A DNA stretch of 32,129 nucleotides, from NCBI RefSeq assembly GCF_000239275.1, contig NZ_JH417570.1, positions 61,450-93,578 on the forward strand. The letters run 5' to 3'. Position 1 is the stretch's first letter. Every line of letters begins with the position of its first letter. The position numbers and the translations under genes are program-made. This DNA comes from Megasphaera geminata F0357 (GTDB taxonomy: Bacteria; Bacillota; Negativicutes; Veillonellales; Megasphaeraceae). Below, piece by piece: positions 6,575 through 31,633 of this stretch. The notes below the pieces were generated by a model. The model was not told the origin of the DNA and searched no databases. It was given only the letters and a program-made list of their open reading frames with translations.

Positions 6575-6606
6575 ATTTGTGTTACCCTGTCCGAGGAGGA
6601 AAGAGA

Positions 6607-7239: not shown

Positions 7240-7260
7240 TGTAAACCGGACATATTTATA

Positions 7261-7307
7261 TGAAAAATAGCGATATGTATTGAAAAATAAAGATAACGCC
7301 GCTATTT
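7261..7307. repeat. Direct and inverted repeats upstream of the membrane-protein/bamA unit
   Basis: TGAAAAATA occurs at 7261-7269 and again at 7281-7289, exactly 20 bp apart (two helical turns). AAATAGCG (7265-7272) is the reverse complement of CGCTATTT (7300-7307). The region is A/T-rich, non-coding (7240-7382) and precedes the next gene, so these could be operator or promoter elements. No convincing -35/-10 pair was found. Confidence 0.35.
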
Positions 7308-7382
7308 CATAAAGTTTTGTATGTACTAAATAATCCCTTTGTGCAGGATATTTATATTATATGCAAAAAGGAGGGGTGCCGT

Positions 7383-7950: not shown

Positions 7951-10181
7951 ATGAAAACGCAGAACAAGAAGCTATTGGCCGTTATGGTCGTGAGTGCCAT
8001 GATGACATGCCCTGTATGGGCCAACGAAACGACGACGACTCAGAGTACATCCCTTACGGGATATGAATCGGCAGATGAAATGGCCGCAATACAGCGCGGT
8101 GAACAACCGGCAAGGACACAGCCCGTGTCGGCCGCGGCTCATGAGGAGCTGGCTAAAGCGCCGGCCGTAACGGACACGGATACGACAGCTCAGCCGGTGA
8201 CAAGCGGTCTCACCGGATACGAACCGTCCGAAGAAACGGCGGCGGCGACCGCCGCTCAGCCGTCCCCGGCAACCGCCCCCGTGCAGTCGGCAACGGAAAA
8301 CGGTGAGTCCGCCCGTCAGGACGCAACTCTTCCGAGCGGTGCGGTAGAAGCCAGCGGGCTCCCGTATGTCGGCGGTCTCGGCGAGGTTCGCGTTGACGAA
8401 AGCATTCCCGGTTATCCCATTGCCATGATTTCACAAGAAGAAGAATCGTCTCTTCCGTACGGCAATGCCCTGACCGATGAACAGGCTTCTGCCGTAGCCG
8501 GTAAAACGGTGACGGCTGTAACCGTCGGCCCGTTGCCCGTGCCTGAATTGGAACAGAAGTTCCTGCCCCGTCTGGCTATGCGTACGGGTGATGCCGTCGA
8601 AGCCAACTATGTTCGTCATGACCTCAATGTGCTCGGCTCTTCCGGCCTTTTTGCATCCGTTAAACCCGTTTTTACGCCTGTTCCCGAAGGGATCGCCTTG
8701 AATTATGAAGTGGAAATGAATCCCATCGTCAAAGGCATCGATATTCAGGGAAATGATTCCGTTAAAACGGAAGAGCTTATTAAAACCTTGCATGTACAGC
8801 CCGGAAATATTCTCAATTCTACGATTATCAGTAAGGATATTTATGAATTGAACAGTTTCTACGCCAATCAAGGATACATCCTCAGCCATGTAACGGCTGT
8901 CGATATGGATGAACAGGGGATCCTCCACATCGGCATCAGCGAAGGACATATAGAAAAGGTCCTTATTGTAGGCAATAAGAAAACAAAAGATCGCGTTATT
9001 CGTCGTGAACTGCGTTTCAAGCAGGGTGACGTATTCAATAAAAATCTCGCCAGCCGCAGTATTGAACGCATCTATAACACCGGTTATTTTGAAGATGTCA
9101 ATGTTCGTCTTTTCCAGGGCGAAAAGAATCCGAACGATGTCATCATGGAAATTGATGTAGCCGAACAGAAGACCGGCTCCGTTACAATCGGTGCCGGATA
9201 CTCTCAGTCTGACGGACTGGTGGGTATTTTGGGCCTCAGCGAAACGAATTTCCGCGGTACGGGCGATAAAGTCGGCATTAACTGGGAGTTCGGCGGCAAG
9301 ACGCACAGTAATAAAAATTACTCCTTCTCGTATACGCATCCCTGGCTCAATTCGCACGGTGATTCCATCGGCATGAGTATTTTTAACAGAGAAGCGGAGT
9401 ACGATGATTATGATGAAAAAGGCAATACCGTTTCAGAATACCGCAAAAAGACGGTCGGCGGCAACATCACGTATGGCCGTGTGCGCAGCGAATATGTGAG
9501 TGACTATGTAACGTTAGAAACGAAAAAGACGAAGTATCTCAGCCATGAAGGCGGCCCTTATAACTACGATGCATGGAGAAAAGCGGCCGGCGCCGCTTCG
9601 GTATACAAGAACTATATTGACAATAATTTCGGCCAGACAAACAGCCTGACGTGGTCACATGTATTCGACAACCGTGACAACATTTATGATCCGACGCGCG
9701 GTAAACGTCTTTCCTTTACCGGCGTTTGGGCCGGTCACGGCCTGGGCGGTGATTTCGATTACTTCAAATTTATCGCTGAAAACCGGCTCTACTACAAGTT
9801 GGCGTTAAACACGTTATTGCCGTCCGCCTTATGGCCGGCGCGGCTACAGGCGATATGCCCTATAACGATCTTTTCACCCTGGGCGGCGCCGATACGATTC
9901 GCGGTTATGAAGATGATGAATTCCGCGGTAATAAGATGTATTCGGCAACTATTGAATATCGTTTCCCGATCGCCAAGAAGGTGCAAGGGGTTGTTTTTGC
10001 CGATATGGGTGCTGCCTGGGGCGGTACGGGCAAGATTCCCTGGTACCACGAAAGCAAGGGGATCCATTACTCCGGCGGTGTGGGTCTGCGTGTAACGACG
10101 CCGATCGGGCCTATTCGTCTTGATTATGCGGAAGGTCAGCACGGCGGCAAGTTCCATTTCAGTTTCGGCGGTAAGTTCTAG
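7951..10181 (+). CDS. bamA: BamA/Omp85 outer-membrane assembly protein, interrupted by a 1-nt frameshift near 9801
   Basis: The signal peptide is residues 1-25 (cleavage near VWA-NET). A low-complexity Pro/Thr/Ala/Glu linker (~26-180) carries a repeated LTGYE motif. Three POTRA domains follow (~186-256, 258-331, 334-405; e.g. VKGIDIQGNDSVKTEELIKTL, IEKVLIVGNKKTKDRVIRRE), then the 16-strand barrel. Frame 1 stays in register to about residue 617 (FIAENRLYYKL) and then drifts into nonsense ending at 10095. Adding one G at 9801-9802 (GG to GGG) restores YYKLGVKHVIAVRLMAG, the Omp85 loop-6 motif IRGYEDDEFRG and the C-terminal FHFSFGGKF ending in Phe at 10181, giving about 743 residues. BamA is normally essential, so a sequence error is more likely than a true pseudogene. 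It inserts barrel proteins in the outer membrane; Skp genes follow. Shine-Dalgarno GGAGGG before ATG. Confidence 0.9.
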
Positions 10182-13378: not shown

Positions 13379-14404
13379 GTGAAGAAGACGGTAAACGAAT
13401 TAGCAGAGTTTCTCGGGGGAGCCGTTATCGGTGACGGCAACCGTACTATTACCGATGTAAGAGGGTTGGCCGAAGCAGGGGCAGACGACATTTCTTTTGC
13501 CGTCGAACCGTACACCGAATATTTACCGCAAGTGCATGCGGGGGCCGTTATTGTGGAAAAAGAGTATCCCGCCGGTAAGAACACGCTTATCATCGTAGAG
13601 AATCCGCGCTTTTCTTTTTCCCGCCTCCTTGAATTATTTCATCCCCGTCAAAGCATAGACAGGAGTATCCACGCTACGGCCATTGCCGATGAAAGCGCGT
13701 GTCTCGGCGAGGATGTCGCGGTCATGGCGTATGCCGTTATCGGTAAGCATGTACGTATCGGCAGCCGCAGTGTCATTTATCCGCATGTATTTGTCGGCGA
13801 CAATGTTACTGTCGGTGAAAATGCCGCGATTTATCCGGGTGCCGTTATTATGGAAAATACAGTTATCGGCAGAAATGCGGTTATTCGCGCTCATGCCGTT
13901 ATCGGCGGGGAAGGGTTCGGCTTCGCCGATACGGAAGACGGCAGACATACGCGCATTCCGCAAATCGGCAATGTCTCTGTCGGCGATGATGTGGAAATAG
14001 GCGCCTGTACGACGATTGATAACGGTACACTCGGCAGCACCAAGGTCGGCCGCGGCACAAAAATCGATAACCTCGTCCATTTAGGACATAATGTTGAAAT
14101 AGGTGAAGATTGCTTCGTTATCGCGCAAACCGGTATTGCCGGCAGTACAAAAACGGGAAATCACGTTACCTTTGCCGGCCAGACAGGCTGTACCGGACAT
14201 GTTACAATCGGTGATAATGTAACCTTTGCGGGAAAATCCGGTATTATCGGAAACGTGCCGAGCAATACCGTTAACGCGGGTTTTCCGGCCCGTCCTCATA
14301 TGGAATGGAGCCGTACGCAGGTTTATATTAAAAAGCTGCCCGGCCTGGCCAAAACGGTGAAACAGATGGAAAAACGGCTGGCCGAATTGGAAAATAAACG
14401 GTAA
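13379..14404 (+). CDS. lpxD: UDP-3-O-acylglucosamine N-acyltransferase (LpxD)
   Basis: The start chosen is GTG 13379 with AAAGAGG 8 bp upstream; this gives 341 residues, the normal LpxD length, while the more upstream frame start would overlap the preceding gene. An N-terminal uridine-binding domain (~1-100, ending with PRFSFSRLLELFHP) precedes a left-handed beta-helix of hexapeptide repeats (~100-310, [LIV]Gxxxx pattern) and a C-terminal helix (KKLPGLAKTVKQMEKRLAEL). His237 in LGHNVEIG matches the catalytic base of known LpxD (His239 in E. coli). LpxD adds the second 3-hydroxyacyl chain, from acyl carrier protein, in lipid A synthesis in the cytoplasm. It sits between the Skp genes and the acyltransferase in one operon. 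Confidence 0.95.
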   Translation: MKKTVNELAEFLGGAVIGDGNRTITDVRGLAEAGADDISFAVEPYTEYLPQVHAGAVIVEKEYPAGKNTLIIVENPRFSFSRLLELFHPRQSIDRSIHATAIADESACLGEDVAVMAYAVIGKHVRIGSRSVIYPHVFVGDNVTVGENAAIYPGAVIMENTVIGRNAVIRAHAVIGGEGFGFADTEDGRHTRIPQIGNVSVGDDVEIGACTTIDNGTLGSTKVGRGTKIDNLVHLGHNVEIGEDCFVIAQTGIAGSTKTGNHVTFAGQTGCTGHVTIGDNVTFAGKSGIIGNVPSNTVNAGFPARPHMEWSRTQVYIKKLPGLAKTVKQMEKRLAELENKR

Positions 14405-14414
14405 AGAGGATTGT

Positions 14415-15332
14415 ATGTATACGTTTATGAAAATTCTCAGCTTTATCATATGCCGCCTTCCGATACGTTGCCGGTGGGCATTGGGACGCGGCCTGGGGTA
14501 TTTTTTCTGGACCTTTGTGCCGAAGGGGCGGAAGATTCTGGCGCAGAAACAGATCCTCGACTGCGGGATAACAGCGTCTCCCGCAGCGGCGCTGGATATC
14601 GGCAAGGCCAGCAGTTTACGCTTCGGCCCGATGATCGTGGAAGTACTGTCATATCCCGATTTGCTGCGGCGAGGTTTTTTTGAGAAATTCACCGTTACGG
14701 GGCGGGCATATCTGGATGCCCTTAAAGAGAGCGGGGAAGGGGCTGTTTTTATGGCTTCTCACGCGGGAAATTGGGAAATTCTCGGCGCCTGGCTGGCTAT
14801 GAGCGGATATCCGCTCATCTCTGTCGCGCAACAGCAAAACGGCGGCTCCGATGTTTTCATCAATGAGTACAGAACGATGATGAAACAGCATGTTACCTAT
14901 AAAACGGGCATTCGTGACATGCTTCGCTTCCTGACGGAGGGCAAGTGGATAGGGCTTCTTATGGATCAGGATCCGGGCTATACGGGGATTATGGTCAAGC
15001 TTTTCGGCAGAGATACGCTCACTGCCGACGGGCCGGCCAAATTGGCTGCCGTTAAGGATTACCCTATTGTGCCTATTTTTATTCACGAAGATAAACCTTA
15101 TCATCACCATATTGAAGTACACAAACCGTTCCGCGCTTTCACTGACGGGGAAACGCTTGATAAAGAGGCGAAGAAGCGGCGTGTTTACGAAGTGACACAA
15201 CGCCTTAATGACGTGTTGGAAACGCATATCCGCACCTATCCGTCAGATTGGTTCTGGCTTCATCATCGCTGGAAGTGGACGGAACGGTTAAAAGAAAAAA
15301 CTGAAAAGCAAAACCAGGGGGCTCTGGAGTGA
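14415..15332 (+). CDS. lpxL: Lipid A biosynthesis lauroyl/myristoyl acyltransferase (LpxL/HtrB-like)
   Basis: The product has 305 residues, normal for the family. A hydrophobic N-terminal segment (MKILSFIICRLP) anchors it to the inner membrane. His116 and Glu121 in ASHAGNWEILG form the HX4E motif of the LABLAT acyltransferases. Conserved downstream blocks are LLMDQDPG and the near-terminal PSDWFWLHHRWK. The enzyme adds a secondary acyl chain to the lipid A precursor (usually on Kdo2-lipid IVA). Start ATG lies 10 bp after lpxD, with AAAGAGGA close upstream. The gene ends in the first half of a rho-independent terminator. Which chain position it modifies cannot be read from sequence. Confidence 0.9.
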   Translation: MYTFMKILSFIICRLPIRCRWALGRGLGYFFWTFVPKGRKILAQKQILDCGITASPAAALDIGKASSLRFGPMIVEVLSYPDLLRRGFFEKFTVTGRAYLDALKESGEGAVFMASHAGNWEILGAWLAMSGYPLISVAQQQNGGSDVFINEYRTMMKQHVTYKTGIRDMLRFLTEGKWIGLLMDQDPGYTGIMVKLFGRDTLTADGPAKLAAVKDYPIVPIFIHEDKPYHHHIEVHKPFRAFTDGETLDKEAKKRRVYEVTQRLNDVLETHIRTYPSDWFWLHHRWKWTERLKEKTEKQNQGALE

Positions 15333-15345
15333 ACTCCCTGTTTTT
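15315..15345 (+). terminator. Terminator closing the envelope block
   Basis: CAGGGGG (15315-15321) pairs with CTCCCTG (15334-15340), 7 bp with one G-U, followed by TTTTT. It overlaps the end of the acyltransferase gene. Confidence 0.7.
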
Positions 15346-15355
15346 GCTAATTAAT

Positions 15356-15383
15356 TGGACAAGCGGCTGCCGTTCATTATGAT
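15356..15383 (+). promoter_or_regulatory. Sigma-A-like promoter for the diaminopimelate decarboxylase gene
   Basis: TGGACA (15356-15361), 16-bp spacer, TATGAT (15378-15383). It lies directly after the terminator and 54 bp before the next start codon. Confidence 0.55.
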
Positions 15384-18018: not shown

Positions 18019-19446
18019 ATGCAGTACGATCCGATATGGGATAAATTCCATGAAGAATGCGGTGTCCTGGGCATTTTTGATAAAGAATTGGATATACCGC
18101 GGTATGTGTACTGGGGGCTGTTCGCGTTACAGCATCGCGGTCAGGAAAGCGGCGGTATTGCGTTGACAGACGGTACGAATATTCACACCTACCGCGGTAT
18201 GGGCCTTATCAGTACTGTCTTTGAAAACGGCGTACCCGACAATGAAGGCGGCCATATCGGCATCGGCCACGTCCGCTATTCGACGACCGGATCGAATAAT
18301 CCCCGCAATATACAGCCTTTGGCCGTGTATACATCCATGGGGGAAATTGCTCTGGCGCATAACGGTAATTTGACGAATACACGTGAATTGCGTGACATGC
18401 TGGAAAATGCGGGACAAACATTCCAGACGACCATGGACAGCGAAATTATCGTTAATCTCATCAGCCGCAGCAGGAAACCGACTGTTGAAGAACGCATCAT
18501 TGACAGTGTTAAAGAGATTGACGGCGCGTATTCGCTCGTCTTGATGACAAAGGAGAAAATGTACGGCGCTCGTGATCCCCACGGTTTCCGCCCTCTCTGT
18601 ATCGGCAGGACGGCAACGGGCGGGTACGTTCTTGCGTCGGAAACATGTGCTCTTGACGCTCTCGGCGCCGCATTCGTGCGCGACGTAAAACCCGGTGAAT
18701 TCATCGAGATCGGTGAAAACGGGTTGAAATCGGTCCTCTTTACTCATGCCGCCCGTAAACAGGTCTGTTCCTTTGAATATATTTATTTCGCCCGTCCCGA
18801 CAGCAGCATCGACGGCCAGGACGTTTATCAGGCGCGTCTCAACATGGGCAGAGAAATGTGGAATGAAACGCGTTATGAAGCGGACCTTGTTATTTCCGTC
18901 CCTGACAGCGGCACGACGGCGGCTATCGGGTATGCTATGGCGTCGGGTATCCCGTTCAACCACGGTCTTATTAAAAACCGCTATATGGGGCGTACCTTTA
19001 TTAAGCCGAATCAAAAGCAGCGTGAATTGGCCGTACGCATGAAGTTAAACGTCGTCAGGTCGGTCGTCGGAGGAAAGCGAATCGTCATGGTCGACGATTC
19101 GATCGTTCGCGGTACGACAAGCGGCATTATCTGCAAGCTTCTCCGCGAGGCGGGCGCAAAAGAGGTATACATGTGCGTATCGGCGCCGCCGGTTAAATAT
19201 TCGTGCTTCTACGGTATTGACACATCCGTTCGTAAAGAGTTGATTGCAGCCGATTTGAATGTGGAAGAAATCCGTAAGTATATCGGCGTAGACAAACTCC
19301 ATTTCATTTCTTTTGACGGCCTTGCCAGGGCGATGCCCGCTGTTCCGAAGGAAGATATGTGCCTGGCCTGTTTCAATAATGACTATCCTACTGCAGTCCC
19401 GGCCAATGAGGAAGGAGAAAAATATGCACTCGAAGGAAACTGCTAA
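18019..19446 (+). CDS. purF: Amidophosphoribosyltransferase (PurF)
   Basis: The product has 475 residues. A short propeptide of 13 residues precedes Cys14 (CGVLGIF), the N-terminal nucleophile of the glutaminase domain. The phosphoribosyltransferase domain has the PRPP loop [15 protein letters not shown] at ~355-369. Cysteines at about 250, 396, 447 and 450 match the four ligands of the [4Fe-4S] cluster of the Bacillus-type, oxygen-sensitive enzyme, fitting an anaerobe. It makes phosphoribosylamine from PRPP and glutamine, the first step of purine synthesis. Shine-Dalgarno TGAGGAGGA is close to the ATG. The 3' end overlaps the purM start by 23 bp. Confidence 0.96.
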
Positions 19447-20496
19447 AGAAAGCTTAACCTATGCCGCCGCCGGCGTTGATATCGATGCGGGCAACCGGGC
19501 GGTCGAACTGATGAAAGATGCCGTAAAGGCGACGTATCGTCCGGAAGTTCTCGGTGATCTCGGCGGCTTCGGCGGCCTTTTCTCTCTCGTGAACAGCCAT
19601 ATTAAAAAGCCCGTTCTCGTCAGCGGTACGGACGGTGTCGGTACAAAGCTGCGCCTCGCCATCATGATGGATAAGCATGACACGGTAGGGCAGGACTGTG
19701 TTGCCATGTCGGTTAACGATATTCTCGTTCAAGGCGCGGAACCTCTCTTTTTCCTCGATTATATAGCTGTCGGCAAGCTTGAGCCGGAACAGGTGGCCGC
19801 CGTTGTCAAGGGCGTTGCCGGGACTGCAGAGAATCGGGCTGTGCCCTTCTCGGCGGGGAAACGGCCGAAATGGCCGGATTCTATGGCGACGGTGACTATG
19901 ACCTTGCGGGCTTCGGCGTCGGTATTGTCGACAGGGACAGGCTTATTACGGGTGAAACGATCGGTGAAGGGGACATCCTCATCGGCCTGCCGTCTACAGG
20001 CGTTCATTCGAACGGTTTTTCTTTAGTCCGTAAAATCGTCCTTGACCGCATGAACATGAAATTGACCGACTATATAGATGAATTGGGCATGTCCGTCGGC
20101 GAAAGCCTGTTGACGCCGACCCGGCTTTATCCGCGCCCGTGTCTGCCGGTCATCCGTAATTTTACCGTTAAGGGGATGGTACATATTACAGGCGGCGGTT
20201 TTTATGAAAACATCCCTCGCGTTCTTCCCGACGGCATCGGTGTGGAAATTGATGTTACCGCATGGCCGCGCCTGCCTGTTTTTGAGCTGCTCCGAAAATG
20301 GGGCGATGTTGCCTGGCCGGAAATGTACAGAACGTTTAATATGGGTATCGGCATGATTATGATTGTCGATGCCGGGGATGCGTCCGCCGTCATGAAAAAT
20401 TTGGCCGACCGCAATGAAAAAGCATACGTCATCGGCAGGACCGTAAAAGCAGGGGCGGACAGAGTTGTGCTCGGGGGAGGCGTTTTTAATGGCTAA
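19424..20496 (+). CDS. purM: Phosphoribosylformylglycinamidine cyclo-ligase (PurM), interrupted by a 1-nt frameshift near 19820
   Basis: Start ATG 19424, AAGGAG 6 bp upstream, inside the end of purF. The first 130 residues are clean PurM ([51 protein letters not shown]). At the GGG of 19820-19822 the frame breaks; adding one G gives VVKGVAGDCRESGC and then [33 protein letters not shown] and [13 protein letters not shown] through to TAA at 20494-20496. The restored protein is ~357 residues, normal length. The enzyme closes the imidazole ring to give AIR using ATP. Both halves are otherwise intact with no other lesions, so a sequencing error is the simplest explanation. The stop overlaps the purN start (ATGGCTAA). 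Confidence 0.92.
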
Positions 20497-23062: not shown

Positions 23063-24475
23063 ATGGAGTACCGCATGGAAAAGGATTCAATGGGAGAAGT
23101 GAAAGTGCCGGCACAAAAGCTTTGGGGTGCACAAACACAACGGAGCCTTGAAAACTTCAGAATCGGCACGGAAAAGATTCCGGTCGAGATGGTTACGGTT
23201 TTTGCATATCTGAAAAAAACGGCCGCTCTTGTCAATAAAAAATTGAACCACCTTGACGAAGCGCGGGCTGAGGCCATTATTCAAGCTTGTGACGATATTT
23301 TGGCAGGCAAACTGGACGGTAATTTCCCTCTTGCCGTGTGGATGACCGGCAGCGGCACACAGTTTAATATGAACGTCAATGAAGTCGTTGCCCGCAGAGC
23401 CATGGAAATCCTTGCGGGAAAAGGGATGCCTGTAAGTGTGCATCCGAACGATCATGTCAACCGTTCGCAGAGTTCAAATGATATCTTCCCGACGGCTCTC
23501 TACGTGGCGGGGCTTCTTCTGATTCGTAATGATTTGATGCCTGCCATGAGGGATCTTTATGATAAACTTTCTGCCAAAGCTGAAGAGTATCGGTATATTG
23601 TGAAAATCGGACGGACTCATTTGCAGGATGCGACGCCCTTGACGCTCGGGCAGGAATTCAGCGGCTGGGCGCGTATGATTCAGCGCAATGAAGAAATGAT
23701 CGGTTGCGGTATCGATTATCTGCGCGATCTCGCCGCGGGCGGGACCGCCGTCGGCACAGGTATCAATTGTCCTGAAGGGTATGACGTGCTCTTTGCCGAA
23801 ACGTTGAGTGAATTGACGGGTGAAGCCTTTCATACGGCACCGAATAAATTTCAGTCTTTGACCAGTAAAGATGAAATTGTCGTTGTCCACGGCATGCTGA
23901 AAGCTCTTGCCTGTGACCTCATGAAGATTGCAAATGATATCCGCTGGCTTTCGTCGGGGCCGCGCTGCGGTATAGGCGAACTCATTATTCCGGCTAATGA
24001 ACCTGGCAGCTCCATCATGCCGTCAAAAGTTAATCCGACGCAGTGTGAAGCCGTCACGATGGTGGCCGTACAGGTCATGGGCAACGATACGACCATGGGT
24101 GTCGCCGCCAGTCAAGGGAATTTTGAGCTGAATGTTTTTATGCCCGTTATGGCCTATAATATGGTACAGACAGTGCGTCTTTTAACGGATGTAATGAATT
24201 CCTTCGGTACACACTGTATTGCCGGCATTACGCCGAATTATGAACAGATTGATAAAAACCTCCGCCGGAGCCTTATTCTCGTTACGGGCCTTGTCCCCCT
24301 CATCGGCTATGACAAGGCCTGCATTATTGCCGGCAAAGCGGTGTCGGAAGGGGTGACTTTACGGGAAGCCGCCGTCGCGACCGGTTGGGTAACGGAAGAA
24401 GACTACGACAACTGCATGGATCCGGCGGCATTGGCGGGACTGGTCCGTCATGAAAGCCGCCACGGAAATTCGTAA
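23063..24475 (+). CDS. fumC: Class II fumarate hydratase (FumC)
   Basis: The product has 470 residues, normal for the family. Blocks: TGSGTQFNMNVNEV, HPNDHVNRSQSSNDIFPTA, GRTHLQDATPLTLGQEFSG (catalytic His), GGTAVGTGIN, APNKFQSLTSKDEIV and the superfamily signature GSSIMPSKVNP at 315-325. It interconverts fumarate and malate without iron-sulfur clusters. Aspartase (AspA) shares the fold, but the HPNDHVN/TGSGTQ and NKFQSL blocks favour fumarase. ATG has GGGAGGA 9 bp upstream; a second in-frame ATG is at 23075. It follows the purine terminator, and fumarate is a by-product of purine synthesis, though the pairing may be incidental. Confidence 0.93.
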   Translation: MEYRMEKDSMGEVKVPAQKLWGAQTQRSLENFRIGTEKIPVEMVTVFAYLKKTAALVNKKLNHLDEARAEAIIQACDDILAGKLDGNFPLAVWMTGSGTQFNMNVNEVVARRAMEILAGKGMPVSVHPNDHVNRSQSSNDIFPTALYVAGLLLIRNDLMPAMRDLYDKLSAKAEEYRYIVKIGRTHLQDATPLTLGQEFSGWARMIQRNEEMIGCGIDYLRDLAAGGTAVGTGINCPEGYDVLFAETLSELTGEAFHTAPNKFQSLTSKDEIVVVHGMLKALACDLMKIANDIRWLSSGPRCGIGELIIPANEPGSSIMPSKVNPTQCEAVTMVAVQVMGNDTTMGVAASQGNFELNVFMPVMAYNMVQTVRLLTDVMNSFGTHCIAGITPNYEQIDKNLRRSLILVTGLVPLIGYDKACIIAGKAVSEGVTLREAAVATGWVTEEDYDNCMDPAALAGLVRHESRHGNS

Positions 24476-24705: not shown

Positions 24706-24734
24706 TTGACCTGTTCATATTTATTGTATACAAT
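24706..24734 (+). promoter_or_regulatory. Promoter of the GntR regulator gene
   Basis: TTGACC (24706-24711), 17-bp spacer, TACAAT (24729-24734), close to sigma-A consensus. The -10 sits within the palindromic operator, implying autoregulation. Confidence 0.75.
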
Positions 24735-24740
24735 AAATAT
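24717..24740. promoter_or_regulatory. Perfect 24-bp palindrome, probable GntR operator
   Basis: Positions 24717-24740 form a perfect inverted repeat centred between 24728 and 24729, with core TTGTATACAA. This fits the GT-N-AC style of FadR-family operators. It covers the -10 and the end of the spacer of the regulator promoter. Confidence 0.7.
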
Positions 24741-24764: not shown

Positions 24765-25427
24765 TTGAAAGAAAAGAAGGAGTCTCTAAGTGACCGTGCA
24801 TATGCGTATATCCTTGAGCGTATTATTACGTTCGAGTTGGCACCCAACGCGCCAGTTGTTGAGGATGCGATTTGCACGGAGCTGCACATAAGCCGGACGC
24901 CTGTACGCGAAGCGCTACGGCGGCTGGAAGCGGAAGGCTTTGTCACAAAAATTCGGAATCTTGGCAGCTTCATCCGTCCCTATACGCAGGAGGATATTCG
25001 TGAAAGCTGCGAAATCCGAAAAATTTTTGAACTCTATGCGCTCAAAAGTTGCGTCAAACAAGTCAAGCCGGAAGAGATCAACGCTGTCCGTGCGCTGCTT
25101 CTGGAACTGACAGAACAGTCTCCGGTTGAGGCGTATTATGCGAGTGACACGGCACTGCACAATATGATCACCAAATACTGTATCAACGCGAAAATACATG
25201 AAATCCTGAAATCGCTTGATGTGCAGTTGGAGGCTATCCGGAAAATTTCGGCGCAGACGCCGAAACGCCTGCTTAGCTCGTGTGAAGAGCATCTGGCGAT
25301 TTTGGATATGATTGAGGAAATGGATTTGCAGAAAGCGTCAATCTTTTTGGAGCGTCACTTGGAGAATGTGGAGCAGAGCAGCTTGCGTGCTTACCAGCGC
25401 TTGCGGGTGGAGAAGCTTGGAACGTAA
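24765..25427 (+). CDS. GntR/FadR-family transcriptional regulator (FCD domain)
   Basis: The product has 220 residues from TTG 24765, with ACGAGGT upstream. Residues ~6-70 form the winged helix-turn-helix (SDRAYAYILERIITFELAPN, then ISRTPVREALRRLEAEGFV, the GntR signature). Residues ~75-215 are the all-helical FCD ligand domain with the usual metal-site residues (Asp and His in ASDTALHNMI, His in SCEEHLAI, His in LERHLENV). Such regulators bind small organic acids or amino acids. Its gene heads an operon of catabolic enzymes, and two TTGTATACAA sites lie at its own promoter and just before the next gene. It is therefore the likely local repressor, with the pathway substrate or an intermediate as inducer. 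Confidence 0.9.
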   Translation: MKEKKESLSDRAYAYILERIITFELAPNAPVVEDAICTELHISRTPVREALRRLEAEGFVTKIRNLGSFIRPYTQEDIRESCEIRKIFELYALKSCVKQVKPEEINAVRALLLELTEQSPVEAYYASDTALHNMITKYCINAKIHEILKSLDVQLEAIRKISAQTPKRLLSSCEEHLAILDMIEEMDLQKASIFLERHLENVEQSSLRAYQRLRVEKLGT

Positions 25428-25432
25428 CTTGA

Positions 25433-25462
25433 TTTTATACCGCTCGTCAGGGCGGTATAAAA
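25433..25462 (+). promoter_or_regulatory. Stem-loop after the regulator gene
   Basis: TTTTATACCGC and GCGGTATAAAA pair perfectly (11 bp) around an 8-nt loop. No T run follows on the plus strand, so it is not a typical terminator; it may be an mRNA-end or processing hairpin just upstream of the second operator. Confidence 0.45.
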
Positions 25463-25472
25463 AAGCAATCGC

Positions 25473-25490
25473 ATTGTATACAATTATAAT
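25473..25490 (+). promoter_or_regulatory. Second operator copy with adjacent -10 box before the structural genes
   Basis: ATTGTATACAAT (25473-25484) repeats the core of the palindrome at the regulator promoter. It is followed directly by TATAAT (25485-25490), a perfect -10; no good -35 is visible. Binding here would control the enzymes separately from the regulator. Confidence 0.6.
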
Positions 25491-25516
25491 ACTATGGTGT
25501 TGTTGAGAGGTATAAA

Positions 25517-26200
25517 ATGGCTACTGGCTGTAAAATTGTGCTGGATTTTGAGCGCCCTGCGCGGGAATTAATCGAAAGCTTCCGTGAGATTTCGGTTGCG
25601 AATCTGGACGATTGCATGGGAAGAATCGCGGCGGTACGGGCGGAGATTGTGCCGATGGGAAAGCCGAAACTACTCGGCGCGGCGTTTACGGTCAAGGTAC
25701 CGGAAGGCGACAATCTGATGTTCCATAAGGCGATGGATCTGGCAAAACCCGGAGATGTGATCGTCATTAACGCTGGCGGAAGCATTCAGCGCAGCATCTT
25801 TGGGGAATTGATGGCACACTACTGTAAAATACGCGGCATTGCAGGGATTGCTGTTGACGGAAGCATCCGTGATGCGGTGGAAATTGCTGCGATGGATTTT
25901 CCGGTTTATGCGCGCGGCGTGACACCGAATGGCCCGTATAAAAACGGCCCCGGTGAGATCAACACTGTCATTTCTTTCGGTGGCAGAACTGTACATCCGG
26001 GAGACATCGTTGTTGCCGACGCAGACGGCATGCTCTTCGTCCGCCCGGACGAGGCGGACGCGATCCTGAAAGCGGCGAACGCGGTGATGGAAAAGGAAGC
26101 AAACATTATGAAAACACAACTGGAGAACGGTACATATCTTCGTCCGTGGGTGGATGAAAAGCTACAGGAAATCGGCTGTGAAATTGTAGAGCGCTCGTAA
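25517..26200 (+). CDS. RraA / HMG-aldolase-like protein 1
   Basis: The product has 227 residues, ATG with GAGAGG 6 bp upstream. RraA/MenG-like fold: NLDDCMGRI near the N-terminus, KPGDVIVINAGGS (~residues 75-87), GIAGIAVDGSIRDAVE, and C-terminal PGDIVVADADGMLFV. The active-site spacing is E-X20-R-D-X2-E (Glu in FGELM, Arg-Asp in SIRDAVE). This mixes features of the two known active types (D-X20-R-D of HMG/CHA aldolase and G-X20-R-D-X2-E/D of RraA-like enzymes with aldolase/oxaloacetate decarboxylase activity). Probable role: metal-dependent retro-aldol or decarboxylase step on a 2-oxo acid. It is the first of three paralogues and may form mixed assemblies with them. An RNase E regulator role is less likely given the operon. 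Confidence 0.85.
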   Translation: MATGCKIVLDFERPARELIESFREISVANLDDCMGRIAAVRAEIVPMGKPKLLGAAFTVKVPEGDNLMFHKAMDLAKPGDVIVINAGGSIQRSIFGELMAHYCKIRGIAGIAVDGSIRDAVEIAAMDFPVYARGVTPNGPYKNGPGEINTVISFGGRTVHPGDIVVADADGMLFVRPDEADAILKAANAVMEKEANIMKTQLENGTYLRPWVDEKLQEIGCEIVERS

Positions 26201-26219
26201 GCGCAAAGGAGGATGAAAC

Positions 26220-26885
26220 ATGGAATTCACACAGGAACTACGGGGACGCTTTGAACGGTTGTCGTCCACTAATCTATCGGATGCCATGGACGCACTCGGG
26301 ATGCGCGGTTTTACTTTCGGTATCCACCCGTTGCAGGCTGCTTGGCGGAAGATTGTCGGTCCTGCCGTCACGATGCGCATGATCGCCGCCGGCCAAATAC
26401 CTCAAAAAACACATCTCGGTATGAACGCCATCGCCTCTGCCAGGCCCGGTGACGTTATCGTCATTGACAACGGAGGCCGAATGGACAGCTCATGTTGGGG
26501 CGGAATCCTTGCTAATGCCGCGAAGATCAAGGGAGTGGCCGCCACCGTTATCGACGGTTGCTGCCGCGATCTGGATGACTGCATCGATGCGGACTACCCT
26601 GTCTATGCACGCGGCACGGTTATCTGCACGGCCCGTGGCCGCGTCATTGAAGAGAGCACCAATCAAATGATCCAGTGCGGCGGCGTCCAGGTCCGTCCGG
26701 GCGATATCATCTTCGGCGACAGCAGCGGTATTGTTTGCGTGCCGCAGGAGAAGATGCTTGAGATCCTGGAAAAGGCGGAACAGCTCTGGCAGAAGGAAGA
26801 AGACATGATAGCTGAAATCAAGGCAGGCGCGGATATTCTTGCTGCCGACGCCAAGTACAACTACAATAAAATGCTGCAAAAGTGA
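26220..26885 (+). CDS. RraA / HMG-aldolase-like protein 2
   Basis: The product has 221 residues, ATG with AGGAGG 6 bp upstream. Same fold: STNLSDAMDALGMRG, RPGDVIVIDNGGRMDSSCWGG, IDGCCRDLDD, RPGDIIFGDSSGIVCVP, then a C-terminal helix. The active-site spacing is G-X20-R-D-X2-D, the motif reported for RraA-like proteins with HMG aldolase and oxaloacetate decarboxylase activity (Thermus and yeast examples). It is therefore the paralogue with the best direct support for C-C lyase activity on 4-hydroxy-2-oxo acids. It differs clearly from its two neighbours, so the trio is not a recent duplication. Confidence 0.87.
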   Translation: MEFTQELRGRFERLSSTNLSDAMDALGMRGFTFGIHPLQAAWRKIVGPAVTMRMIAAGQIPQKTHLGMNAIASARPGDVIVIDNGGRMDSSCWGGILANAAKIKGVAATVIDGCCRDLDDCIDADYPVYARGTVICTARGRVIEESTNQMIQCGGVQVRPGDIIFGDSSGIVCVPQEKMLEILEKAEQLWQKEEDMIAEIKAGADILAADAKYNYNKMLQK

Positions 26886-26897
26886 GGGACAGATAAC

Positions 26898-27548
26898 ATG
26901 GATCAGATTATTGAACGTTTCAAAAAGCTGGACACTACCTGTGTTTCTGACGCTATGGACAAAATTGGTATTGAATGTAGCGTTTACGGCATCAAGCCGG
27001 TTCAGAGCGGAGAAAAAATCTGCGGTCGGGCTTTCACCGTTCACTATGCCCCCTGCGGTGCTGTCAAGGGCACGGTCGGTGACTTCCTGGACGACGTCGA
27101 GCCGGGACAGGTTATCGTCATTGACAACGCGGGTCGCGACAATTGCACCGTCTGGGGTGACATCATGGCAAAGACCGCCAAGAAATACGGCATTACCGGT
27201 ACGGTCATTGATGGGGTCTGCCGCGATATCCCGGCGGTTCTTGAGTGCCGGTACCCTGTATTCTCTAAAGGCTATTATATGCGCACCGGTAAGGACCGCG
27301 TATATGTTGATGCAGTGAACGTTCCCGTTACGCTCTCCGATATTCAGGTTTGCCCGGGTGACATCGTCATCGGTGACGACACGGGCGTTGTTGTCGTGCC
27401 GCAGAGCCGTGCGGAAGAGGTTGCGGAAATTGCTGAGAACATCGACCGCAAAGAGCAGGAGATTCTCGCTCTGGTTGCGAAGGGCTATAAACTCAAGGAA
27501 GCACGCGCCATGACCGGTTACCATCATTTACAGACGAAAGAAAAATAA
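26898..27548 (+). CDS. RraA / HMG-aldolase-like protein 3
   Basis: The product has 216 residues, ATG 12 bp after the previous stop with GAGGGA upstream. Same fold: DTTCVSDAMDKIGIECSVYG, GQVIVIDNAGRDNCTVWGD, TGTVIDGVCRDIPAV, CPGDIVIGDDTGVVVVPQ. The active-site spacing is D-X20-R-D with no acidic residue at the +3 position, which is the motif of the Pseudomonas HMG/CHA aldolase. This one is therefore closest by motif to true 4-hydroxy-4-methyl-2-oxoglutarate aldolase. Aconitase X follows 13 bp downstream. Confidence 0.87.
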   Translation: MDQIIERFKKLDTTCVSDAMDKIGIECSVYGIKPVQSGEKICGRAFTVHYAPCGAVKGTVGDFLDDVEPGQVIVIDNAGRDNCTVWGDIMAKTAKKYGITGTVIDGVCRDIPAVLECRYPVFSKGYYMRTGKDRVYVDAVNVPVTLSDIQVCPGDIVIGDDTGVVVVPQSRAEEVAEIAENIDRKEQEILALVAKGYKLKEARAMTGYHHLQTKEK

Positions 27549-27561
27549 GGAGGCAACACCA

Positions 27562-28773
27562 ATGGCAATGTATCTGACCCCGGCAGAGCAGGAGATGTTT
27601 GACGGTAAACGGGGACCGCTAACGCAGAAGTGTATGAAGGTACTTGTGACGCTCGGCGAAATTTACGGTGCAAAGCGGATGGTCAAGGTGAGAAACGTTC
27701 ACTTTCCGGGCGTATCGTATCGTGTGGCGGGTGACGCAGGCCTGGAGTATGTGTGCGATGCGAGCGAGCAGGGCAGTTTCTGCGTGCCGTCCACACTTAA
27801 CACTATCGGCATCGACTGTTTCGACATGGAATCGTTGCAGTTTGACAAGGAATTTTGCAAGGGACAGCTCAAACTCAACGAGGCATATGAAAGGATGGGC
27901 GCAATTCCGACCTACACCTGCACGCCGTATGTAGTCGGCGGCTGTCCTGGCTTCGGCGAACATGTGGCATGGGGCGAGTCGAGTGCCATCATCTACGTAA
28001 ACTCTGTCATCGGTGCACGTACCAATCGTGAAGGCGGTCCGACGGCGTTGGCGGCTGCAGTCTGCGGCTGTGTGCCGGAATACGGCTTCCATCTCAATGA
28101 AAACCGCTGTGCGACACACCTGATTCAGGTGGACTATTCTCTGAAAACGAATCGCGACTTTGCCGTAATGGGCTACTACGTCGGCAACAAGGTTGGCAAC
28201 AAAGTTCCATGCTTTACGGGCATTACCGAACGTCCGATCGTCGAGCAGTATAAGGCACTGGGTGCGGCGCTTGCTTCGTCGGGAGGTATTGCGCTCTACC
28301 ATATCGAGGGATTCACACCCGAAGCGCCGAGCAAAGAGGTGGTTTTGAAGGATGAGTACGAAACCGTGTACTTTGGCAAGGAAGAATACACCGAGGTGGA
28401 GAAGTTTTTCACACTTAGAGAGCCGGCGGACCTGGTCGTCATCGGGTGTCCGCACTGCACAATCAACGAGGTTGTCGAGATTGCAAAGCTTGTGGAAGGC
28501 AAGCATGTGAAGATTGACATGTGGGTCTGCCTATCGCATCAGATCTATGCGTTGGTAGAGCGCATGGGCTATGTGAAAACACTCGTAGACGCGGGTGTGA
28601 CATTTGTGCGAGATACCTGTCCTATCCTCTGTCCGACCAGCCCCAAGGGTTATCGTGGCGTGGCGACGAACTCCGGTAAGCTTGCGCACTATATCCGCGG
28701 TTTGTGGAACATGGACTCTGAGCTTATACAGCTTGAAGACTGCGTAAAGACTGCACTTGGGGAGGAGGCGTAA
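27562..28773 (+). CDS. Aconitase X large (catalytic) subunit
   Basis: The product has 403 residues, AAGGAGG 8 bp before ATG. DUF521/aconitase X catalytic domain: MYLTPAEQEMFDGKRG at the N-terminus, HFPGVSYRVAGDAG, YTCTPYVVGGCPGFGEHVAWGES (Cys120, Cys128), NSVIGARTNREGG, VIGCPHCTINEV (Cys296, Cys299), DTCPILCPT (Cys353, Cys357) and TNSGKLAHY. The cysteines supply the iron-sulfur cluster. Known aconitase X enzymes are cis-3-hydroxyproline dehydratase (bacteria) and phosphomevalonate dehydratase (archaea). Neither hydroxyproline nor mevalonate genes are nearby, so the substrate is unknown; dehydration or hydration of a 4-hydroxy-2-oxo or related acid is inferred from the aldolases next door. Confidence 0.9.
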   Translation: MAMYLTPAEQEMFDGKRGPLTQKCMKVLVTLGEIYGAKRMVKVRNVHFPGVSYRVAGDAGLEYVCDASEQGSFCVPSTLNTIGIDCFDMESLQFDKEFCKGQLKLNEAYERMGAIPTYTCTPYVVGGCPGFGEHVAWGESSAIIYVNSVIGARTNREGGPTALAAAVCGCVPEYGFHLNENRCATHLIQVDYSLKTNRDFAVMGYYVGNKVGNKVPCFTGITERPIVEQYKALGAALASSGGIALYHIEGFTPEAPSKEVVLKDEYETVYFGKEEYTEVEKFFTLREPADLVVIGCPHCTINEVVEIAKLVEGKHVKIDMWVCLSHQIYALVERMGYVKTLVDAGVTFVRDTCPILCPTSPKGYRGVATNSGKLAHYIRGLWNMDSELIQLEDCVKTALGEEA

Positions 28774-28776
28774 GAT

Positions 28777-29196
28777 ATGGAAGAAAAAATCGTCATGCAA
28801 GGCAGAAAGATTGTCGAGGGCTACGCCGAGGGCTATGCGATTGTGGCAAAACATGATTGCATTTCCTTTATGGGCAGCACGAACCCCAAGACTGGTTATA
28901 TTATTGAGCGCGGGCATGAACTCGAAGGCATGTGCATGCAGGGAAAAATTCTCTGTTTCCCGTCATCCAAGGGCTCAACAGGGGGGTCCTATATGCTGTA
29001 TGATGCAGTTAAGCGCGGAGTGGGCCCCGCAGCCATTGTCAATATTGAAGCGGAATCCATCGTTGTCATCGGCGCAATCGTCTCTGATTTTCCTATGGTC
29101 GATAAAATTGACATTTCCAAAATCGAAACCGGCGACTATGTAAAAGTCGATGCGACAAACGGAGTTGTAGAGGTTATCAAGCATACAGAGACATAG
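28777..29196 (+). CDS. Aconitase X small (swivel) subunit
   Basis: The product has 139 residues, 3 bp after the large subunit, with GGGGAGGAGG in the end of that gene. DUF126/AcnX swivel domain: GRKIVEGYAEGYAIV, FMGSTNPKTG, and the signature FPSSKGSTGGSYMLYD (61-76), with the substrate-side serines. The swivel subunit closes over the large subunit to complete the active site. In other organisms the two are fused; here they are split, as in the two-gene forms. Confidence 0.9.
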   Translation: MEEKIVMQGRKIVEGYAEGYAIVAKHDCISFMGSTNPKTGYIIERGHELEGMCMQGKILCFPSSKGSTGGSYMLYDAVKRGVGPAAIVNIEAESIVVIGAIVSDFPMVDKIDISKIETGDYVKVDATNGVVEVIKHTET

Positions 29197-29245
29197 AGGC
29201 TGAATCGGCATATAGAGATAAAACAGATAAAGAGGAGAAAGAGCC

Positions 29246-30430
29246 ATGGAAATCAGTATGAACATGTACCATACCATAGCCCTTGCTGTGGTCGTCTATT
29301 ATCTTGGACAGTTTATCCGCGATCGAGTGACATTCTTTCAGAAATATTGTATTCCTTCCCCTGTGATCGGCGGCATGATTGCCGCATTGATTATTACTGT
29401 TTTGCGCGTGACGGGAGCAATGATTATTAATCTGGATACGACGCTACAAACGGTTTGTATGCTGATATTTTTCTGCAACATCGGCTTCAACGCCAGATGG
29501 AAGGTACTGAAAAAAGGCGGCATTGGGCTTGTGATTATCTTTTTTGCGGTTGCAGCGTTGTGCATCATTCAGGATGGCTTCGGCGCTATGATGATGAAGC
29601 TTTTCGGAAAGCACCCGCTGCTGGGCACGGCGATTGGTTCAGTTTCGCTGGTTGGCGGTCACGGTACCGCCGCATCCTTCGGGCAGCTGATTGAGGATAT
29701 GGGTGTTCCCGCTGCGGCGTCTGCATCGGTTGCAGCCGCAACCTATGGTCTGATTGCCGGCTGCATGATTGGAGGGCCGATTGCCCGCCTGCGTATTTTG
29801 CAGCTGCAAAAGAAGGGAAAGTTTGAGCTCAGCGACTGTACGGAAAAGCTGGATGAGACGGAAAAGAAGTCTCTGAACGAAAAGAGTTTGATGCTGGCCG
29901 TGGCGCTGTTACTGTTGTCCGTTGGCGCAGGTCAGATTATTTCCAGCATCATCGGCAAGTTGATGACCTTCTCTGCTGCGGTGGGCTCGCTGGCTGCGGG
30001 TTGCCTTGTGCGGGGATTCTGTGATGCAAAGAAAATTGAGCTTCCAGACGAGGAAATCGAAATGACCGGTAATATCGCGCTATATCTGTTCTTGTCCATG
30101 GCGATGATGAGTATGAAGATCTGGGAACTGGTCGATTTGGCTGTACCGATGATTGTGACGCTGTTGTTCCAGACGGTGATTTGCGGCCTATTTGCCTACT
30201 TCGTTATTTTCAATATTATGGGGCGCGATTATGATGCTGCCGTTATGACATCCGGCGCCTGCGGCTTTGGTCTCGGTGCAACACCTAACGCTATCGCAAA
30301 CATGAGCGCTGTGGTTTCCAAATACGGTCCGGCGCCGCGCGCATTTCTGATCGTTCCTATTGTGGGCAGCATGCTTGCCGACATTGTAAATTCGACCGCC
30401 ATTACTGTATTTATGAATATCTTCGGGTAA
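29246..30430 (+). CDS. Sodium/glutamate symporter family transporter (GltS-like)
   Basis: The product has 394 residues with about ten to twelve spans. GltS-family motifs occur in both inverted halves: IPSPVIGGMIAAL, SLVGGHGTAASFG (~135-147) in the first half and GFGLGATPNAIANM (~344-357) in the second. RBS AGAGGAGAAAG before ATG 29246. GltS imports glutamate with sodium. Because the operon carries an aminotransferase and an acid-handling dehydratase, the cargo here is probably an acidic amino acid, possibly a glutamate analogue; the motif does not tell which. Confidence 0.88.
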   Translation: MEISMNMYHTIALAVVVYYLGQFIRDRVTFFQKYCIPSPVIGGMIAALIITVLRVTGAMIINLDTTLQTVCMLIFFCNIGFNARWKVLKKGGIGLVIIFFAVAALCIIQDGFGAMMMKLFGKHPLLGTAIGSVSLVGGHGTAASFGQLIEDMGVPAAASASVAAATYGLIAGCMIGGPIARLRILQLQKKGKFELSDCTEKLDETEKKSLNEKSLMLAVALLLLSVGAGQIISSIIGKLMTFSAAVGSLAAGCLVRGFCDAKKIELPDEEIEMTGNIALYLFLSMAMMSMKIWELVDLAVPMIVTLLFQTVICGLFAYFVIFNIMGRDYDAAVMTSGACGFGLGATPNAIANMSAVVSKYGPAPRAFLIVPIVGSMLADIVNSTAITVFMNIFG

Positions 30431-30445
30431 ACAGGAGGAAGTATA

Positions 30446-31633
30446 ATGGTATCTGAGCGAATACTTGCTATGGCGCCCTCGGCGACGAGTATGCTGGGCG
30501 GAAAAATCAGCGAAATGAAGGCAGCGGGGCTTGATGTCGTGTCCTTTAACCTTGGAGAGCCCGATTTTCAGACGCCGCGGAAAATCATGGATACCTGCAC
30601 GAAGGCAATGCTGGACGGCAACACCAAGTATATTGCCGTGGGTGGTATACTGCCGCTACGGAAAGCTATCTGTGAAAAGTTGGAGCAGGACAACAATGTT
30701 TCCTATGAACCGTCGGAAATCTGCGTTTGCACAGGTGCATTAGCGGCGCTCTACAATGCGATGATGACAATCTGCAATCCGGGCGACGAGGTGATTATCC
30801 CGACACCTTGCTGGGTCAGCTATGTCGAGATGGTAAAGTTGGCGGGCGGCAAACCTGTGTTTGTCAGAACGATGGCAGATTTCCAATTGAACATTGCAGA
30901 GATTAAAAGCGCTATTACACCGCGCACGAAGGCTGTGATTATCAACACGCCGAACAACCCGACCGGCGCTGTATACTCACTCGACGTGCTAATGCATCTG
31001 GCGCATCTGGCTATCCGGCACGATTTCTATGTTATATCAGACGAGGTTTATGAAAAGCTTATCTACGACGGCGTAGAGCATATCAGCATTGCTTCGCTCT
31101 TGCCGGAGATGCGCCGGCGTACTATTACGATCAACGGTTTTTCCAAGGCATATTCCATGACCGGCTGGCGGCTTGGCTACGCGGCGGCTCCGATGGAAAT
31201 CACAAAGGGCATGGTGGCGTTTCAAAGTCACACGACAACCAATTCCACGACATTTGTGCAGTACGCTGGTATTACCGCGCTCAAAGATTGCGCCCATGAT
31301 GTCGAAGCGATGCGGCAGGAGTTTGCCAAACGCAGGGTGTATATGCTTGAACGCATGGAAAAGTTTCCGGATGTAACCTGCACGAAGCCCGGCGGCGCAT
31401 TCTACCTGATGCCGGACGTTTCCGCCTACTACTGGAAAAAGACTATAGATGGACAACTCATCAAAGACTCGTTTGATTTCTGCAACTACATGCTGAACGA
31501 GGCACGCGTCGCGATTGTCCCCGGCGCTGCTTTTGAAATGCCGAAGTGCGTCCGCTTTGCTTACTCCATCTCCATGGAGGCCATAGAAAAAGGTATGGAC
31601 CGTCTGGAAGCGGCGCTGGTGAAACTTCATTGA
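30446..31633 (+). CDS. PLP-dependent class I aminotransferase (aspartate-aminotransferase type)
   Basis: The product has 395 residues, AGGAGG before ATG. Fold type I, subgroup Ib (Bacillus AspB-like): FNLGEPDF, TKYIAVGGILPLRKAI, NTPNNPTGAVYS, ISDEVYEKLIYDG (Asp199, Tyr202), the PLP lysine Lys234 in GFSKAYSMTGWRLGY, and the carboxylate-binding Arg in KCVRFAYS near the C-terminus. It would exchange amino and oxo groups between an acidic amino acid and a 2-oxo acid. It is the last gene of the operon, so it is probably the first step after import. No clear terminator follows. Confidence 0.92.
   Translation: MVSERILAMAPSATSMLGGKISEMKAAGLDVVSFNLGEPDFQTPRKIMDTCTKAMLDGNTKYIAVGGILPLRKAICEKLEQDNNVSYEPSEICVCTGALAALYNAMMTICNPGDEVIIPTPCWVSYVEMVKLAGGKPVFVRTMADFQLNIAEIKSAITPRTKAVIINTPNNPTGAVYSLDVLMHLAHLAIRHDFYVISDEVYEKLIYDGVEHISIASLLPEMRRRTITINGFSKAYSMTGWRLGYAAAPMEITKGMVAFQSHTTTNSTTFVQYAGITALKDCAHDVEAMRQEFAKRRVYMLERMEKFPDVTCTKPGGAFYLMPDVSAYYWKKTIDGQLIKDSFDFCNYMLNEARVAIVPGAAFEMPKCVRFAYSISMEAIEKGMDRLEAALVKLH

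Follow-up and report, generated by a model that had tools for sequence, protein, structure and literature searches.

The operon and its features

The stretch of DNA considered here, referred to below as the window, comprises 32,129 nucleotides of contig NZ_JH417570.1 from Megasphaera geminata F0357 (host assembly of 1.8 Mb, 88% complete). Close to its 3' end lie eight genes, all on the plus strand at 24765-31633, which encode a GntR-family regulator, three RraA-family paralogues (R1, R2 and R3), the large and small subunits of an aconitase X (AcnX), a GltS-type symporter and a class I aminotransferase. A reading made from the letters of the window (the sequence-only reading) had taken them for a uniformly oriented set with short gaps, forming an uncharacterised catabolic operon. 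The open reading frame (ORF) list and Pfam assignments bear out the layout, with intergenic gaps of 3-89 bp (89, 19, 12, 13, 3, 49 and 15 bp in gene order), and the comparisons below support the catabolic assignment. Its probable role is the uptake of an uncommon amino acid resembling glutamate and its breakdown to pyruvate, by an AcnX together with three RraA-type proteins that travel together across several phyla. The conserved part is the AcnX-RraA core, to which GltS and the aminotransferase are joined locally.

The features are as follows:

24717-24740, no strand: perfect 12+12 palindrome with the core ATTGTATACAAT at 24723-24734 (exact 12-mer), a likely GntR operator before gntR
24765-25427, plus strand: gntR, GntR/FCD-family regulator, likely a local repressor (TTG start; Pfam GntR and FCD)
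25473-25484, no strand: second exact copy of the 12-mer ATTGTATACAAT, between gntR and R1, 32 bp before the R1 start
25517-26200, plus strand: RraA paralogue R1 (PF03737, RraA-like; PRK06201), resembling 4-hydroxy-4-methyl-2-oxoglutarate (HMG)/4-carboxy-4-hydroxy-2-oxoadipate (CHA) aldolase
26220-26885, plus strand: RraA paralogue R2 (PF03737, RraA-like)
26898-27548, plus strand: RraA paralogue R3 (PF03737, RraA-like)
27562-28773, plus strand: AcnX large subunit, two-subunit type II, of a clade without known substrate (PF04412, 471 bits)
28777-29196, plus strand: AcnX small (swivel) subunit, KGST motif kept (PF01989, 106 bits)
29246-30430, plus strand: GltS-type sodium/glutamate symporter (PF03616, Glt_symporter, 339 bits)
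30446-31633, plus strand: class I aminotransferase, aspartate-aminotransferase-like (PF00155, Aminotran_1_2, 231 bits)

Curated NCBIfam cut-offs are passed by GltS and by R1 (PRK06201, a model named 'hypothetical protein'); the other six operon proteins score below them. The contig ends 496 bp 3' of the aminotransferase gene, at window position 32129, and an additional downstream operon gene is therefore possible.

An aconitase X clade without a substrate landmark

The two AcnX subunits are encoded by separate, adjacent genes (PF04412 and PF01989), which is the type II architecture. Residues were compared in the numbering of TkAcnX, the type II archaeal phosphomevalonate dehydratase (PDB 7CNR/7CNS), and with AtAcnX, a type I enzyme for cis-3-hydroxyproline, taking residue roles from PMC8184944. 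The window protein shares with TkAcnX the two subunits, the three cluster cysteines (Cys110, Cys283 and Cys342) and the catalytic set of Ser62(S), Glu129, Lys361 and Tyr365, but has Val in place of the phosphate-site Asn53(L) and lies in a bacterial operon with no adjoining UbiD gene. With type I AcnX it shares much of the catalytic core (Glu, Lys, Tyr and two cysteines). Type I enzymes are one chain, whereas the window has separate subunits, a TkAcnX-like pattern of cluster cysteines and Pro in place of the ring-nitrogen-binding Asp203 of AtAcnX (Ala47 in TkAcnX). Val at position 53 recurs in all seven RraA-linked AcnX proteins. Six of the seven have Pro at position 47, the exception being the plasmid locus L081 with Ala. 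The clade has intact cluster-binding and catalytic residues and neither published substrate signature.

Subclasses IIc-IIf, without the landmark of either known substrate, are described in section 14 of PMC8184944, where their characterisation is called for; section 11 assumes the active type II enzymes TkAcnX and ApAcnX to be phosphomevalonate dehydratases. The present locus links an AcnX clade that lacks landmarks to a partner set, hence to a short list of candidate substrates. In an AcnX tree, the window protein groups with those of L061-L063 at 100/100, and the seven RraA-linked loci group with L066 at a support of only 86/78. The RraA-linkage label requires two changes on this tree, due to L066, in which AcnX stands at a contig end and no RraA gene is visible.

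A Chloroflexota metagenome-assembled genome (L002, 8692-11586) carries a UbiD gene immediately before the two AcnX subunit genes, and its AcnX retains the mevalonate-type Asn53. The arrangement looks like the modified mevalonate pair of archaeal type, here in a bacterial genome, and offers a useful control.

Conservation of the AcnX-RraA core

How far do AcnX and RraA genes occur together? Two samples were searched, 380 genomes of the class and 398 genomes drawn evenly from the phylum. AcnX relatives in the class genomes are at most 42% identical to the window protein, and no match to the RraA genes was found in the 21 AcnX loci fetched (those of the class and one from Chloroflexota); R3 was found at E 1e-60 in four of the 380. 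In the phylum sample, AcnX was found at E 1e-30 in 30 genomes. The nearest relatives (G742, G448, G751, G561 and G485, 59 to 45% identity) come from four families besides that of the window, and in each of these five genomes both AcnX subunit genes lie together with three RraA genes in a stretch of 3.8 to 6.3 kb. Among 160 plasmid records with AcnX, the best match, a Cupriavidus necator plasmid (L081), carries the same five genes; no RraA gene was found at the second-best plasmid locus, L082. The core of both AcnX subunits with R1, R2 and R3 is present in the window, L061-L065 and L081.

Profile searches connect the two families from either side. An R3 profile gave eight matches above 330 bits in the 398 genomes: the host, the five AcnX+RraA genomes, and G006 and G009, which belong to the genus of the host and in which AcnX is absent. 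The ninth match (G586, 148 bits) is another RraA gene. Near-clade AcnX (at least 351 bits with the window query) occurs in six genomes, and in all six it is co-located with an R3 gene that scores above 330 bits. With the host left out, the hypergeometric probability of this co-occurrence is 2.6e-10, for cut-offs set post hoc and genomes that are not independent. RraA genes are present at seven of the eight clade AcnX loci (the eighth has its AcnX gene at a contig end) and at none of 36 AcnX loci outside the clade, a set that includes short loci and loci truncated at contig ends. Four tested genomes have AcnX proteins scoring at least 690 bits with a clade profile, which was built using the same loci. 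The pairing of AcnX with RraA is more than chance. Its distribution is patchy everywhere: in small classes, the near clade was found in 2/20 genomes of the class of G448, 1/29 of that of G742 and 1/17 of that of G751. The sequence-only reading had proposed a search for AcnX subunits co-occurring with RraA paralogues and GltS; the first association recurs in the five phylum genomes and L081, while GltS accompanies it in the window only.

At L062, PreA-like genes (6210-7400 and 14169-15359) flank the AcnX-RraA cluster, with their first 110 printed residues identical, as if recently duplicated.

Three RraA groups

Are R1, R2 and R3 three aldolases, or parts of one? A tree of 54 RraA proteins from 20 loci, with 3NOJ as the sole additional row and L153-L157 outside the set, resolves three separate groups (R3 100/99, R1 100/100, R2 91/95) that span three phyla. 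The protein 3NOJ falls within the R1 side, and the window R1 is on a long branch.

Position 102, at which we take Asp to have a role in aldolases, is Asp in the window R3, Glu in R1 and Gly in R2. Across the loci it is Glu or Asp in 17/17 R1 proteins and Asp in 19/20 R3 proteins; the 17 R2 proteins have Gly (9), Asp (7) or Glu (1). Numbering follows the HMG/CHA aldolase of Pseudomonas putida F1 (LigK/GalC type; PDB 3NOJ), a member of the same RraA fold family, whose residue roles, including the metal ligands Asp124 and Glu199, are those given in PMC5065237. Arg123, Asp124 and Glu199 are kept in all three window proteins. Arg123 and Asp124 are found in 54/54 RraA proteins, and Glu199 in 17/17 R1, 20/20 R3 and 10/17 R2 proteins (Gln in the other seven). 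The window R1 additionally keeps Asn71 and His75, which are kept throughout in R1 only.

The window proteins are thus putative aldolases. They differ from the HMG/CHA aldolase in forming three distinct paralogues, in the Gly of R2 at position 102 and in scoring below equivalog cut-offs; the CHA aldolase equivalog PRK09262 (179 bits) is not reached by R1 (150.6), R2 (88.2) or R3 (109.9 bits). The known HMG/CHA aldolase pathways have one aldolase gene. Because three paralogues with different active-site make-up stay together, a mixed complex is suggested. Of the earlier proposal of three RraA-type aldolases, the aldolase assignment gains support from the kept Arg123/Asp124/Glu199. As the three groups are old and distinct and R2 often lacks a counterpart of Asp102, R1, R2 and R3 may act as differing subunits of a single enzyme rather than as three aldolases. 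Vibrio vulnificus RraA proteins are hexameric or trimeric according to PMC5738090. Annotations such as 'RraA family protein' and 'dimethylmenaquinone methyltransferase' hide this conserved three-paralogue module.

What travels with R3

Altogether 25 R3 loci were opened: the window, L061-L065, L081, L112-L117, L142, L143, L145-L149 and L153-L157. The 15 plasmid loci besides L081 were hand-picked from two sets of 44 and 88 records. R2 lies beside R3 in 22 of the 25 loci (not in L142, L143 or L148, the last of which begins at the first base of its record) and R1 near R3 in 20. A class I/II aminotransferase gene adjoins the RraA genes in 10, nine of them window-like by tblastn (window included) and L114 by annotation. 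Its return in 9/24 other loci favours the role that the sequence-only reading gave to the aminotransferase. The eight genes as a conserved unit, also proposed there, do not hold up: AcnX is present in 7/25 loci and GltS in 1/25.

Plasmids of Rhizobium, Pseudomonas and Burkholderia repeatedly show an alpha/beta hydrolase gene close to the series R2, R3, R1, aminotransferase, and Pantoea has R3, R1, aminotransferase, hydrolase. The clusters on the Bradyrhizobium plasmids L156 and L157 are a ring-cleavage set, in which extradiol dioxygenase, amidohydrolase and RidA genes come before R2-R3 and cytochromes P450 are also encoded. In Novosphingobium L149, amidohydrolase and RidA genes adjoin those for ring-hydroxylating dioxygenases, and sets related to such dioxygenase/amidohydrolase clusters occur in Rhodococcus L116 and Polymorphobacter L115. 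L153 (G329) comprises R2, R3, a TRAP transporter, a D-2-hydroxyacid dehydrogenase, R1 and a GntR protein. Streptosporangium L112 has three RraA genes and a LysR gene among hypothetical genes, with no evident pathway.

The two same-genus loci, L142 (G009) and L143 (G006), encode LysR-like and PrpF-like proteins, an amino acid permease, R3, R1, an aminotransferase and a nitrilase-like amidase, and no AcnX (for each protein, the copy at one locus was scanned). The PrpF-like protein scores 343 bits with 4-oxalomesaconate tautomerase (cut-off 440) and 277 with PrpF, and PrpF occurs in 2/15 genomes of the genus, G006 and G009. Judging from this gene set, the substrate may be an amino acid with an amide group, for example 4-methyleneglutamine. 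As we read these loci, their common thread would be that something makes a 2-oxo acid cleavable by an RraA aldolase. Since R3 operons without AcnX often carry aminotransferase, 2-hydroxyacid dehydrogenase or ring-cleavage genes, they suggest that RraA is the aldolase ending a 4-hydroxy-2-oxo-dicarboxylate pathway.

Transporter, aminotransferase and regulation

GltS passes the NCBIfam sodium/glutamate symporter equivalog TIGR00210 (335.1 bits, cut-off 310.75), and no second GltS was found in the host genome. Elsewhere in the genus, the best GltS match, that of G014, is 44% identical to the window protein over its full length; of the other genomes, nine have weaker, split matches and four have none. 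The aminotransferase meets PF00155 and does not reach the equivalog NF041091 (409.8 bits, cut-off 550).

The palindrome before gntR overlaps the -10 element of a sigma-70-like promoter at 24706-24734. ATTGTATACAAT occurs twice in the window where 0.01 copies are expected, and two copies were found in 0/100 shuffles; promoter and terminator scans overall gave no more sites than shuffles. Relatives of GntR are encoded at L061 and L062 (38% identity) and at L153 (36%). L062 has a single copy of TTGTATACAA, placed between gntR and the operon gene that follows; a search of the other five AcnX+RraA loci found none. These repeats are consistent with a GntR protein that would act at ATTGTATACAAT to control the operon. 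Distinct from the operator-like palindrome, a perfect 11-bp inverted repeat with an 8-nt loop lies at 25433-25462, between gntR and R1.

A proposed pathway and its alternatives

The gene families, the catalytic residues, the conserved AcnX-RraA core and RraA groups and the operator-like repeats can all be read from the sequence, and from them we infer the following pathway. The operon would be an inducible catabolic one for a 4-substituted glutamate-type amino acid, a reading to which we give a probability of about 0.5. GntR, bound at ATTGTATACAAT, would control expression; GltS would import the amino dicarboxylate and the aminotransferase convert it to the 2-oxo acid. The two-subunit AcnX is predicted to interconvert 4-ene and 4-hydroxy forms by hydration and dehydration. 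The RraA proteins, probably as a mixed R1/R2/R3 complex, would then cleave the 4-hydroxy-2-oxo-dicarboxylate by a retro-aldol reaction to pyruvate and either pyruvate or oxaloacetate. Candidate substrates are 4-methyleneglutamate, 4-hydroxy-4-methylglutamate and 4-carboxy-4-hydroxy-2-aminoadipate, all of which are plant amino acids. The scheme of the sequence-only reading is in this respect the most likely outline, in part supported by the comparisons above.

Which acid would suit AcnX best? In CHA, as in mevalonate 5-phosphate, the tertiary hydroxyl is beta to a carboxylate; dehydration of CHA gives 4-oxalomesaconate. The hydroxyl of HMG is beta to a keto group, and HMG would fit AcnX chemistry less directly. 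In the known AcnX enzymes, a proton is taken next to a carboxylate and a beta hydroxyl expelled, according to PMC8184944, and the HMG/CHA aldolase cleaves both acids (PMC5065237). The HMG-type substrates named earlier are kept as candidates, and CHA-type acids may be placed alongside them.

The lower pathway of protocatechuate 4,5-cleavage and gallate degradation runs from 4-oxalomesaconate to CHA and on to pyruvate and oxaloacetate. The same end game is proposed here, hydration followed by an RraA-family aldolase, and two genomes of the genus have a PrpF/4-oxalomesaconate tautomerase-like gene alongside R3 and R1. The hydratase proposed for the window is AcnX, not LigJ/GalB, and entry would be via an amino acid, not a ring. 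A further parallel is the lower pathway of 5,5'-dehydrodivanillate (DDVA), for which PMC12673573 proposes hydration of 4-carboxy-2-hydroxypentadienoate to HMG and cleavage to two pyruvate by an RraA-family aldolase; UxuA is the proposed hydratase there, AcnX here. We read 4-carboxy-2-hydroxypentadienoate as a tautomer of 4-methylene-2-oxoglutarate. The HMG-making hydratase of Sphingobium SYK-6 is listed in PMC12673573 as not identified, and a new type of candidate hydratase would thus be useful for one studied aerobic pathway. Among the matches listed in a search of open-licence papers, no description of AcnX with RraA or of a three-RraA operon was recognised.

A broader proposal, to which we would give somewhat less than even odds, is that the clade represents a third AcnX activity, a 4-hydroxy-2-oxo-dicarboxylate hydratase/dehydratase for CHA/4-oxalomesaconate or HMG/4-methylene-2-oxoglutarate, and also that R1-R3 form an obligate mixed-subunit aldolase, the whole being a mobile module in at least three phyla for unusual glutamate analogues and related acids.

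Alternatively, the AcnX-RraA core might degrade a non-amino di- or tricarboxylate (CHA/4-oxalomesaconate-like or otherwise citrate-like), with GltS importing that acid or being unrelated and the aminotransferase serving ordinary glutamate/aspartate exchange. This seems doubtful, and it draws on much of what weighs against the amino acid pathway. Among the 25 R3 loci, the window is the only one with GltS and the only one with AcnX and a class I aminotransferase together. The six other AcnX+RraA loci have no match to the window aminotransferase (at L064, a class IV aminotransferase gene adjoins AcnX); five of them carry TRAP/TAXI-type (L061, L062 and L063) or TctC-type (L065 and L081) transport genes, and several also encode UbiD or further enzymes, which would fit a core that acts on a non-amino carboxylate. 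A CHA-like acid would also resemble mevalonate 5-phosphate around the reacting carbon. Moreover, the window aminotransferase is only 35-38% identical (271-284 bits) to those of other RraA operons, and orthology with them is not supported; it scores higher, by a different program, with the PDB aspartate aminotransferase 1J32 (355 bits). R2 has Gly at the position of Asp102 in 9/17 and Gln at that of Glu199 in 7/17 proteins, and the enzyme activities of the operon proteins are predictions. Against a non-amino substrate, however, aminotransferase genes adjoin RraA in 9/24 other R3 loci from several classes, which points to amino acids as a normal entry, and GltS passes the glutamate-symporter cut-off.

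It is very improbable that the window AcnX is a hydroxyproline or mevalonate-type (phosphomevalonate) enzyme. These are the two characterised activities named in PMC8184944, and the PDB matches are to those enzymes, but the landmark residues of both are replaced, the NCBIfam C3LHyp model gives 283.5 bits against a cut-off of 700, and the operon has no UbiD or proline-pathway gene. The possibility raised earlier that AcnX might act only on cis-3-hydroxyproline loses ground accordingly, the clade being without that landmark. Least probable of all is a role of the RraA genes in RNA decay, with an incidental place beside AcnX: the family name and the inhibition of RNase E by E. coli and Vibrio RraA (PMC5738090) point that way, but the aldolase residues are kept, scores with RNase-regulator models are under the cut-offs, most opened R3 loci have a catabolic context (L112 shows none) and three separate RraA groups are kept together.

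Genomic setting

Upstream of the operon lie a purine operon (gene names assigned by eye) and fumC (23063-24475). AcnX occurs in 1/17 genomes of the family, that of the host, and the AcnX cluster is therefore accessory; a scan of the genome contigs found a single AcnX relative. The gene order purH, purD, fumC is common to 8/8 fetched same-genus loci, with fumC directly after purD in four and about 1.7 kb further on in the other four, and no match to the operon genes was found in these eight. Three different genes follow fumC among the five same-genus loci with listed ORFs. As the purH-purD-fumC order is constant and the following genes differ, fumC belongs to the core and the stretch 3' of it is variable. 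Membership of fumC in the operon was rejected, since it is part of this conserved stretch in eight loci without operon genes. A binning artefact is unlikely: the cluster is on the same assembled contig as the conserved purine/fumC stretch and its GC content is like that of the remainder.

Within the window, no tRNA was found and no Rfam family reached its gathering score. By eye, purM (19313-20496) seems split between two ORFs, 19313-20026 and 19870-20496, which overlap in different frames, perhaps through an assembly frameshift. The final part of an Omp85/BamA-like ORF (7951-10095), also noted by eye, is unlike the end of an outer-membrane protein, perhaps again owing to a frameshift.

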